This document shows, piece by piece, positions 24,261 through 44,098 of a stretch of DNA of 64,000 nt. The stretch lies in NCBI RefSeq assembly GCF_004364635.1, contig NZ_SOAX01000004.1, positions 124,001-188,000 of the forward strand, in the 5' to 3' direction. Position 1 is the first letter of the stretch, and the number at the start of each line of letters is the position of its first letter. The DNA is from Halospina denitrificans (lineage in GTDB: Bacteria; Pseudomonadota; Gammaproteobacteria; Pseudomonadales; Oleiphilaceae). The position numbers and the translations under genes are program-made. The notes beneath the pieces are model-generated. The model worked only from the letters and a program-made list of their open reading frames with translations, was not told where the DNA came from and made no database searches.

Positions 24261-24370
24261 GGTGTGGTCGGGGAGGGGGCTCCGGGAAACGCTATGAATA
24301 CGTCCCTGTACGCTGCGCTTTCGCCATCCATGGCGAAAGAGCTTCCCTCCGCCCCCTCCCCGACCACACC
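24261..24370 (-). repeat. Long hairpin element A (subtype 1, inverted)
   Basis: Perfect 20-bp arms 24261-24280 and 24351-24370, then an unpaired TCC/TCC internal loop, then GGGAA/TTCCC. The core (read on the minus strand) contains hairpin 1, CTTTCGCCA-TGGA-TGGCGAAAG (24318-24339), and hairpin 2, TAC-AGGGAC-GTA. It lies between divergent crp and osmC, ending 30 nt before the osmC start, so there is no room for a separate osmC promoter after it. The arms match no other copy; the core matches element B at all but three of the core positions compared. Confidence 0.9.
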
Positions 24371-24400
24371 TTATTCAATATCGAGGAGAGCGCCGCTCAA

Positions 24401-24820
24401 ATGAAAACCACCATCAACTGGACTGGCGATGCCAGCTTTCGCGCAACAACCGGCTCGGGACATGACATCCAGATGGATGGACCGCCGGATCACGGTGGCC
24501 AGAACCAGGGCGCACGCCCGATGGAGATGATGCTGGTGGGTCTTGGCGGCTGCACATCCTTTGATGTCATGAGCATCCTTCACAAGTCGCGCCAGGACGT
24601 TACCGATTGCCGCGCTGAAATCGAGGCGGAGCGGGCGGATACGGTGCCGTCGGTGTTCACGCGCATTCATATCCATTTCCACGTGACCGGCAACAATCTG
24701 AAAGAGAAGCAGGTCGAGCGCGCAATCCGCCTCTCAGCCGAGCACTACTGCTCCGCATCAATCATGCTGGAAAAAGCGGGTGTTGAAATCACGCATGAAT
24801 ACACCATTCATAATGGGTAA
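24401..24820 (+). CDS. OsmC/YhfA-family protein
   Basis: A 139-residue OsmC-fold protein: DASFRATTGSGHDIQMDGPP, MEMMLVGLGGCTSFDVMSIL (with the peroxidatic-type Cys of GGCTS) and HYCSASIMLEKAGVEITHEY (second Cys). It is likely a thiol-based protein of redox or osmotic stress, close to E. coli YhfA, which also neighbours crp. Start ATG 24401 follows GAGGAGAG; an open frame upstream runs through element A and is not coding. It is flanked by hairpin elements A and B in opposite orientation. Confidence 0.88.
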   Translation: MKTTINWTGDASFRATTGSGHDIQMDGPPDHGGQNQGARPMEMMLVGLGGCTSFDVMSILHKSRQDVTDCRAEIEAERADTVPSVFTRIHIHFHVTGNNLKEKQVERAIRLSAEHYCSASIMLEKAGVEITHEYTIHNG

Positions 24821-24864
24821 GGGTATTTTCAAAACTCCAAGATTCTCTACCGGGAAAGGTTCAG

Positions 24865-24984
24865 GGCTTGAAAGTCGGTGGTATGGCTTGGAGGGAAGCT
24901 CTTTCGCCATGGATGGCGAAAGCGCAGCGTCCAGGGATGGATTCATAGCGTTTCCCGGAAAGCCATACCACCGACTTTCAAGCC
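24865..24984 (+). repeat. Long hairpin element B (subtype 1, forward)
   Basis: Perfect 25-bp arms 24865-24889 and 24960-24984, a GGA/GGA 3x3 internal loop, GGGAA/TTCCC (24893-24897 and 24952-24956), hairpin 1 CTTTCGCCA-TGGA-TGGCGAAAG (24901-24922), and hairpin 2 TCC-AGGGAT-GGA (about 24930-24941). It starts 44 nt after the osmC stop and ends 129 nt before the speD start. It may terminate osmC or protect its mRNA. The rest of the osmC-speD spacer shows no further motif. Confidence 0.9.
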
Positions 24985-42484: not shown

Positions 42485-42530
42485 TATTTGGTCTCTGGTT
42501 TCTGTGGGTTGCTGTGGGTTTTGTGCAGGA

Positions 42531-42645
42531 AATCAGTCGGGTGGGGAGCGCTTTCCGGGAATCGCTGTGAATCCATCCATGGACGCTGCCCTCCGCCATC
42601 CATGGCTCCGGAGCTTCCCGGAAAGCGCTCCCCACCCGACTGATT
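42531..42645 (-). repeat. Long hairpin element C (subtype 2, inverted)
   Basis: Perfect 31-bp arms 42531-42561 and 42615-42645; here the internal-loop positions are complementary (TCC/GGA), so pairing runs unbroken into GGGAA/TTCCC. Read on the minus strand, the core has hairpin 1 CTCCGGAGCCATGGATGGCGGAG (23 nt split as CTCC-GGA bulge-GCCA/TGGC-GGAG) and hairpin 2 TCCA-TGGA region. It starts 13 nt after the coaBC stop and ends 46 nt before the dut start, in the direction of those genes. Confidence 0.9.
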
Positions 42646-42658
42646 CCCCCCGCATTGT

Positions 42659-43852
42659 TTATGCTCGCGACCTTTTATGGATCAGGGTCAGGAGATCGGT
42701 CGCCAGTTCTGTCTTGGAGCGGGCATCATACTTTTGGCTACCGCCTTCCCAGAACACCTCCACTGCGTTGCGGTCACTGTTGAAACCGATATCCGGGGCC
42801 GAGACATCATTGGCGACGATCATATCGAGGTTTTTGCGTTTGAGCTTGTCCTTCGCATAATCGCTGACGTTGTTGGTTTCGGCGGCGAAGCCGACGGTGA
42901 AGGGTCGGTTCTGCTTTCGGGCCGCGACGGAGGCGAGGATATCGGGGTTCTGTTGCAGTTCGATTACCGGGGCGCTGTCTTTGTTTTTCTTGATCTTGGA
43001 TTCGGAGCGGGTGACCGGGCGGTAGTCGGCGACGGCGGCGGTGGCGACGAACCAGTCGGTGCCGTTGGTCAGGGCCTCGTCCACGGCCTTTTGCATGTCT
43101 TCGGCGGTTTCCACATCCACGCGCTGGACGCCGTTGGGCGTGGGCAGGGAGACGGGGCCGGCGACCAGGGTGACGTCGGCGCCCTGGCGGGCGGCGGATT
43201 CGGCGATGGCGAAGCCCATGCGCCCGGAGCTGTGGTTGGTGATGTAGCGCACCGGGTCCAGGGACTCGCGGGTGGGGCCGGCGGTGAGCACGAGGCGGAT
43301 GCCTTTCAGGGGCTGGTCGTCCATGGCGGCAACCTGCTGCACCAGTTGGTCCGGCTCCAGCATGCGCCCGGGCCCCACATCCCCACAGGCCTGATCCCCC
43401 TCGGCGGGGCCCCAGATACGGAACTGCGGATCGGATTCAAGCGCCTGGAGATTCTTCTGCGTGCGGGCATTCGCCCACATGGCCTGGTTCATCGCCGGCG
43501 CCAGGGCAATGGGCGCCTCGGTGGCCAGGCAGAGCGTGGTCAGCAGATCATCGGCAAGGCCGTGAGCAAGACGGGCCATAATGTCGGCGGACGCGGGCGC
43601 CACCAGCACCAGCTCCGCCCACTTCGCCAGCTCAATATGGCCCATCCCGGCCTCCGCCTCGGGATCCAGCAGACTCTGGCGAACCGGATGGCCACTCACC
43701 GCCTGAAAGGTCAACGGCTGAACAAACGCCTTCGCCCCCTCCGTCATCACCACCCGAACCTCATGCCCCTGCTGCTTGAGCCTGCGCACCAGATCCGCAC
43801 TCTTGTAGGCGGCAATGCCGCCGGTGACCCCAAGAAGAATCCGTCTGCCCAC
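42659..43852 (-). CDS. coaBC: Bifunctional phosphopantothenoylcysteine synthetase/decarboxylase
   Basis: A 397-residue fusion for two coenzyme A steps. The flavin decarboxylase half (about 1-185) has RILLGVTGGIAAYKSADLVR, VVMTEGAKAFVQPLTFQ and PAMNQAMWANARTQKN. The synthetase half (about 190-397) has VLTAGPTRESLDPVRYITNH, SSGRMGFAIAESAARQGADV and VGFAAETNN followed by KNLDMIVANDV. It is flanked by hairpin elements C (downstream) and D (upstream, about 140 bp before the start), and divergent from radC. Confidence 0.95.
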   Translation of the reverse strand: MGRRILLGVTGGIAAYKSADLVRRLKQQGHEVRVVMTEGAKAFVQPLTFQAVSGHPVRQSLLDPEAEAGMGHIELAKWAELVLVAPASADIMARLAHGLADDLLTTLCLATEAPIALAPAMNQAMWANARTQKNLQALESDPQFRIWGPAEGDQACGDVGPGRMLEPDQLVQQVAAMDDQPLKGIRLVLTAGPTRESLDPVRYITNHSSGRMGFAIAESAARQGADVTLVAGPVSLPTPNGVQRVDVETAEDMQKAVDEALTNGTDWFVATAAVADYRPVTRSESKIKKNKDSAPVIELQQNPDILASVAARKQNRPFTVGFAAETNNVSDYAKDKLKRKNLDMIVANDVSAPDIGFNSDRNAVEVFWEGGSQKYDARSKTELATDLLTLIHKRSRA

Positions 43853-43992: not shown

Positions 43993-44098
43993 GGCAGGCG
44001 GGGCGGGCTTCACGGGAAGCTCCGGAGCCATGGATGGCGGAGGCGCAGCGTCCAGGGATGGATTCATAGCGATTCCCGTGAAGCCCGCCCCGCCTGCC
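43993..44098 (+). repeat. Long hairpin element D (subtype 2, forward)
   Basis: Perfect 26-bp arms 43993-44018 and 44073-44098, including GGGAA/TTCCC; the internal-loop positions are CAC/GTG and paired. The core shares hairpin 1 (GCTCCGGAGCCATGGATGGC) with element C and hairpin 2 (TCC-AGGGAT-GGA) with element B. It lies between divergent coaBC and radC and ends 36 nt before the radC ATG, so any radC transcript from upstream begins with this structure. Confidence 0.9.

Follow-up and report, generated by a model that had tools for sequence, protein, structure and literature searches.

Cores and arms of a dispersed intergenic palindrome family in Halospina denitrificans have separate histories

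REP/REPIN sequences are high-copy intergenic palindromes whose close copies mostly form inverted pairs (PMC3116915), and TwoAYGGAY RNA (RF01731) consists of two hairpins with AYGGAY loops and a poorly conserved outer stem (PMC2864571, PMC4333381), for which binding of CsrA has been proposed (PMC4333381). For RNA genes, template switching has been described as a source of perfect stems (PMC8794818; each of these sources is drawn on in part). Here we describe a palindrome family in Halospina denitrificans that shares features with all three. Four of its copies, elements A to D, lie in the window, by which we mean the whole analysed stretch of 64,000 nucleotides:

24261–24370, minus strand: element A, with a Crp-family gene on one side and osmC on the other; core 24284–24347, arms 24261–24283 and 24348–24370
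24401–24820, plus strand: osmC, lying between A and B; Pfam OsmC, 2.9e-20
24865–24984, plus strand: element B, 3' of osmC; core 24893–24956, arms 24865–24892 and 24957–24984
42528–42648, minus strand: element C, in the gap that separates dut from the 3' end of coaBC; core 42557–42619
42659–43852, minus strand: coaBC, lying between C and D; Pfam Flavoprotein and DFP
43993–44098, plus strand: element D, between coaBC and radC; core 44014–44077, arms 43993–44013 and 44078–44098 (perfect)

A covariance model of 100 positions, built from 30 copies, matched the window at 24266–24365 (minus), 24875–24974 (plus), 42539–42637 (minus) and 43996–44095 (plus) with 107–118 bits; the remaining four of the eight matches up to E = 1 are the same four places on the opposite strand. 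These matches and the Pfam assignments confirm the initial annotation, which had placed one pair around osmC and the other around coaBC. Its claim that subtypes agree within each pair also stands. A and B have in common TCTTTCGCC...GGCGAAAG plus a GTTTCCC tail, and C and D have in common TCCGGAGCC...GGCGGAG and AGCGTCCA plus ATTCCC. The triple signature of h1 type, GGA/GGA mismatch in the inner arm and GTTTCCC tail is found in A and B only (2 of 107 copies), and the C/D signature in 4 of 107, two of them being C and D.

Each copy comprises a roughly 64-bp core containing two GGA-loop hairpins, framed by near-perfect inverted arms of 21–47 bp. The arms measure 24 bp in 36 of 107 copies, and their 2812 pairs include at least 64 that are not Watson–Crick (24 of these G–T); the arms were delimited by extension under a rule biased towards pairing, so this mismatch rate is a lower bound. 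Between own copies, that is, copies of the genome studied here, arm identity averages 0.452 and does not exceed 0.88. Among 182 cores, in which the relatives are represented by 53 of 113 listed elements, a GGA was located in 161 first and 181 second hairpins, and the loop reads ANGGAN in 342 of these 342; strict AYGGAY loops occur in 129 of 161 first and 83 of 181 second hairpins, and the 21 first hairpins missed by GGA-based detection mostly carry CAGGA-type loops. Folded as DNA, element B adopts the expected outer stem and two hairpins (z −11.3). Element D folded as RNA also forms the outer stem, with a minimum-energy core that departs from the two-hairpin form. In the 30 aligned own copies, the arms are rich in G on the 5' side and in C on the 3' side, and an invariant G–C pair (30/30) with a near-invariant neighbour (29/30) lies 12–13 bp outside the core, in columns 7 and 6. 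An origin of the arms as captured target sequence or pre-existing terminator hairpins was rejected in view of their characteristic length, the G-rich 5' side and the lack of a T-tract by eye. Rfam miRNA-type matches on the arms, all below cut-offs, were likewise set aside and probably reflect long hairpins.

The 3.32-Mb genome contains at least 107 copies above 60 bits. At E ≤ 0.1, at least 125 matches represent at least 110 distinct places, of which three weak ones (28–32 bits) were left out of all counts. The copy list is a lower bound, as the best 150 candidates per genome were scored and the known copy C5:208367 is absent from it. Nearly all of the at least 107 copies lie between called genes, with genes called on both sides of 106 of the 107 by a codon-score caller. 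In the same-genus relatives, distinct places at E ≤ 1e-4 number at least 44 (G001), 38 (G002) and 31 (G004); G003 (68% complete) was excluded from site comparisons. Across the taxonomic family as sampled, matches occur in 126 of 151 genomes and in 8 of the 16 genera, with per-genome counts resting on the best 27 candidates. The coaBC loci of named species contain no element at the model threshold, Catenovulum aside, in which three weaker relatives of 37–49 bits lie 5' of coaBC (L059:1893-1990, L059:2234-2331 and L061:2266-2363). A search made largely outside subscription journals found no publication on this palindrome family, and the Marinobacter literature, in the portions covered (including PMC3733652, PMC12306157 and a term search), holds nothing specific to it.

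Like REP/REPIN sequences, the family has more than 100 intergenic palindromic copies (here at least 107) and inverted close doublets: of the 12 own neighbour pairs closer than 600 bp, every one is opposed and 10 read '-+'. It differs in its two-hairpin core of about 64 bp, in copy-specific arms of 21–47 bp and in that the nearest neighbour of most copies lies beyond 600 bp. Moreover, this genome is without a Y1 (RAYT-type) transposase, for which reason mobilisation by RAYT was rejected; Y1_Tnp (PF01797, RAYT/TnpA-REP) gave no match in G000, G001, G002 or G003 and two in G004. An invariant tetranucleotide (GTAG/CGTC) was sought at the arm ends, and no column exceeded 0.52 bits within 40 nt on either side, in a search blurred by varying arm ends and indels. 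In relatives, GTAG-type sequences that we take, by eye, to be REP-like stand beside or between paired elements (L199, L200, L201); they are absent at the matching own sites, near C2:429662-435169.

An apparent likeness to TwoAYGGAY lies in the two GGA-loop hairpins on an outer stem, and among Rfam families element B scores highest against this RNA (33.9 bits). In the wider taxonomic family it was matched in 4 of 20 loci, at best with 38.1 bits; both matches span all 168 positions. The gathering score of RF01731, 43 bits, was reached by none of the matches in the window, none of 20 own loci and none of 20 wider-family loci, and 16 own loci yielded just one match at E ≤ 1. In contrast to TwoAYGGAY, the family is a dispersed repeat of more than 100 copies, and its near-perfect arms look like a DNA-level feature. 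Since the ANGGAN loops resemble those of CsrA-binding hairpins and the genome encodes one csrA, the copies might act as CsrA-binding RNA, as proposed for TwoAYGGAY. REP/REPIN and TwoAYGGAY are the closest known kinds; each departs from the family on a defining point, and the family is assigned to neither. With template-switch hairpins and quasipalindromes it shares two-sided changes that preserve perfect stems; unlike those of RNA genes (PMC8794818, drawn on in part), it is a dispersed repeat whose centre can change independently of its stem. A MITE would have terminal inverted repeats common to its copies, which the low arm identity given above contradicts.

Neighbouring copies tend to have similar cores. 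Own neighbours 300–2000 bp apart show a core identity of 0.903 (11 pairs) against 0.772 after permutation (p = 5e-5), and with the window pairs set aside the value is 0.894 (9 pairs, p = 1.5e-4). Within the main subfamily (92 copies), identity declines from 0.94 at 0.3–2 kb (10 pairs) through 0.905 at 2–3 kb (3 pairs) and 0.854 at 3–5 kb (14 pairs) to 0.83 from 5 to 50 kb and 0.823 between contigs; the similarity of neighbours fades by about 5 kb. The relatives gave 0.806 vs 0.720 (p = 0.056), 0.834 vs 0.758 (p = 0.088) and 0.946 vs 0.758 (p = 0.001) at 300–2500 bp, with few pairs from 53 of 113 listed elements. The closest copies argue against a general conversion: own pairs less than 600 bp apart show no clear resemblance (12 pairs, 0.818, p = 0.077), and main-subfamily pairs below 300 bp (7 pairs, 0.775) fall under the subfamily mean; pairs below 300 bp in G001 are alike (4 pairs, 0.889, p = 0.003). 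In the abutting pairs P114 and P235, partner cores differ (0.89–0.92) and orthologues are 0.98–1.00 identical, and P165 partners share 0.82–0.83. Because the partners in these pairs differ, as do those of P372 in G001 and G002, conversion is not general.

Cores and arms do not share one history. The 20 own pairs with a core identity of at least 0.985 have an arm identity of 0.463, vs 0.452 over all 5671 pairs, and the copies C2:352801/354443 combine 100% identical cores with unrelated arms. The reverse is seen at orthologous sites, where 17 comparisons with a core identity below 0.86, not independent since they share branches, have a mean arm identity of 0.78; random pairs scored alike reach 0.54 (95% quantile 0.69). 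Arms are fully identical at P372a between G001 and G004 (1.00; 5' outer arm 16/16 positions) and at P372b between the own genome and G002 (1.00), with a core identity of 0.78 in both cases, and element A of the own genome and of G002 has arms at 0.94 and cores at 0.75. The P372 loci are collinear over about 1.1 kb in all four genomes, and the partners have one identical core in G004, 0.97 identity in the own genome, 0.78 in G001 and 0.77 in G002. The ancestral pair may have matched, its cores then being replaced in G001 and G002; P372 would then be an original match that broke up later, a reading that counts against conversion as the source of the match. The arms of P372a in the own genome and G002 are at chance level (0.56–0.62), so that recognisable arms are not retained at every site. 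Arms and cores are thus decoupled, and some orthologous sites hold strongly different cores within kept arms.

The arms remain complementary because most changes hit both sides. In the outer helix of 30 copies, 17 of 23 pairs change on both sides, 10 with all four Watson–Crick types; a one-sided change is found in 3 cells, and 18 of the 19 unpaired cells belong to the inner arm. After register correction, the orthologous arm differences (41 related comparisons) comprise 140 two-sided Watson–Crick changes, 32 via G–T and 35 with a mismatch, and the 24 closest comparisons give 35, 11 and 7, respectively. Nine of these 35 two-sided changes fall within the inner 5 bp and 26 outside; some of those adjoining the core may have arrived with it. 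Recent splits include single two-sided changes (A between G001 and G002, P114b between G001 and G004, X432905 between G002 and G004) as well as single one-sided ones (P235a, X9335, P114a, P165a). Template switching between the arms would explain two-sided changes as single events. Selection for pairing with fast compensation is an alternative.

The A/B pair occupies the same place in the own genome, G001, G002 and G004, and its partner cores are alike within a genome (0.95 own, 0.91 in G001, 0.92 in G002), while own A and B are only 0.69–0.84 identical to their orthologues. Both own cores are of TTTCG type and both cores in G001 and in G002 of GGTGG type; in G004, A is of GGTCG type and B of GGTGG type with hairpin 2 expanded. 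The GGA/GGA mismatch of the inner arm is present in B of the own genome, G001 and G002, and in A of the own genome only, which suggests that B converted A in the lineage of the own genome. A shared donor is an alternative source of the A/B match. Conversion between partners, one of the options raised in the initial annotation, is thus supported for this pair by its retained place, by partners that are alike and orthologues that are not, and by the mismatch in A.

Based on these observations, we propose the following hypothetical two-layer scheme, in which (i) A to D would be copies of a dispersed intergenic DNA palindrome; (ii) its core of about 64 bp, with two hairpins and mostly ANGGAN loops, would serve as a common cassette, open to replacement by the core of a different copy; (iii) the donor would most often lie no more than a few kb away and could have either orientation; and (iv) the arms of 21–47 bp would belong to the locus, inherited with the site and drifting in sequence, with complementarity kept through template switching. 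Separately from these two layers, copies within about 600 bp are arranged back to back, left end towards left end. Neighbours would share a subtype because their cores are copied mutually or from a common local source, and not because a gene is carried along. The exchange would be gene conversion, possibly by single-strand annealing or by template switching at the replication fork. Against this, ordinary RecA recombination works poorly on a 64-bp tract whose copies are about 77% alike and flanked by non-homologous arms. Core-limited gene conversion, perhaps plus local gain, fits best, and we favour the whole explanation, centres copied between nearby copies and arms bound to their locus, with a probability of roughly 0.6. 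A more specific version, a family of palindromic sockets, each the locus's own and kept complementary by template switching, in which a 64-bp double-hairpin GGA-loop cassette is exchanged mainly within the span of a replication-fork gap (about 0.3–5 kb), is put forward tentatively and as rather less than an even bet.

The resemblance of neighbours might instead reflect short-range spread, in which a copy newly arrived at a distance of one or two genes from its parent brings the parental core and gains new arms at the target, so that neighbours are sisters. The C/D pair is compatible with this: both sites are empty in G001, G002 and G004 by synteny and have no model match there, dut, coaBC and radC follow in the same order, and the two cores are 0.94 identical. 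The pair C5:117157/118751 is absent from the same three relatives, and each of its two cores has the other as closest match (0.98, rank 1 both ways). The HSPs of the relatives are 69–90% identical, and insert sizes are estimated by eye at about 130–150 bp. Both copies of each pair were either gained around a resident gene or lost in the relatives; as all four copies are recent, shared origin is indistinguishable from conversion after gain. The decay of similarity over kilobases in both orientations and the identical cores with unrelated arms at C2:352801/354443 are also as short-range spread predicts. However, it cannot yield changed cores within kept arms, as seen for A (own/G002), P372a (G001/G004) and P372b (own/G002), and no candidate enzyme is at hand, Y1, the sole transposase family sought, being absent from the genome. 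We consider spread an improbable account of the family, with a compatible place for the pairwise spread of the initial annotation at C/D and the C5 pair. A further reading is a composite unit, in which two copies would be the ends of a mobile element carrying the enclosed gene. Inverted back-to-back ends around a single gene at A/B and C/D, five '-+' neighbours at 300–2000 bp in the genome, and the own pair C2:160729/161554, which encloses two small, possibly mobile genes, would suit such a unit. We presume the genes inside this '-+' pair (L151, C2:160729-161652) to be a BrnT/BrnA-like toxin–antitoxin pair. Yet in three relatives coaBC and the C5 gene occupy the same positions with no elements around them, unlike the cargo of a composite transposon, which excludes gene carriage at these two loci and contradicts that part of the initial annotation. 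With osmC and A/B at one place in four genomes and same-orientation pairs matching as well, a composite unit is highly improbable.

The orientation of the copies is likewise open to a geometric explanation, namely that they are sense-strand regulatory leaders of the next gene and that opposed pairs follow from gene context. All four window elements are sense into their downstream gene (Crp-like, AdoMet_dc, dut and radC), and a 5'-leader rule fits A to D. It fails genome-wide, where 51 of 106 copies are sense into the next gene, and was rejected as contradicted. The copies prefer the 3' ends of genes instead: 34 lie in convergent and 13 in divergent context (p = 0.003), 38 in tandem sense and 21 in tandem antisense (p = 0.036), and close '-+' pairs are found in all four contexts, which makes leaders very unlikely, if not quite as remote as a composite unit. 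Within 600 bp, 10 of 12 adjacent own copies are '-+', that is with left ends facing, two are '+-' and none share an orientation (p = 3.8e-5 vs 25%); the relatives give '-+' in 6/6, 3/3 and 4/4 cases (13/13), at loci partly shared with the own genome. Between 300 and 2000 bp, 5 of 11 own neighbours are '-+' and 6 of 11 have the same orientation (p = 0.16). Back-to-back orientation is a short-range rule, across gene-sized gaps only suggestive, and since the bias is confined to less than about 600 bp, A/B, with 510 bp between model matches, is at its edge. The genome-wide neighbour list to which the initial annotation had tied its claims therefore gives a split answer, with non-random orientation below 600 bp and neighbour cores alike at larger spacing. 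The core similarity is not tied to opposed orientation: opposed pairs at 300–2000 bp reach a core identity of 0.940 (5 pairs, p = 1e-4) and same-orientation pairs match too (0.872, 6 pairs, p = 0.013). The description of both pairs as inverted upstream and forward downstream of the enclosed gene is true and adds no information, because every '-+' pair fits it on either gene strand. Least probable of all is a chance agreement of two common subtypes. The h1 type alone does agree in 24% of random draws, and h1 type with tail in 8.5%; against this stand the permutation results with and without the window pairs and the restriction of the A/B signature to 2 of 107 copies, and the reading is contradicted.

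Repeats are usually treated as units copied whole, and here centre and arms differ in history. The separate histories make the family a natural assay for two processes that are hard to see in bacteria, the short-range exchange of dispersed 64-bp sequences and two-sided change in palindrome arms. With more than 100 copies here and matches in 126 of 151 sampled relatives, both rates should be measurable from sequence alone. A similar core is also a warning, as it does not equal common descent of the copies. If true, the socket-and-cassette arrangement would be a repeat whose centre and frame are inherited separately.

Two further observations concern individual sites. The G001 copy C12:80200 and own C8:163912 are probably one orthologue, their arms having been judged by eye. 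Some copies are expanded by about 80 nt in hairpin 2, resembling three more hairpins (L141, C1:521707; L155, C2:438076; L199, the G001 orthologue of C2:432905; and L186, B of G004), and this expansion is present or absent at the same site depending on the genome.
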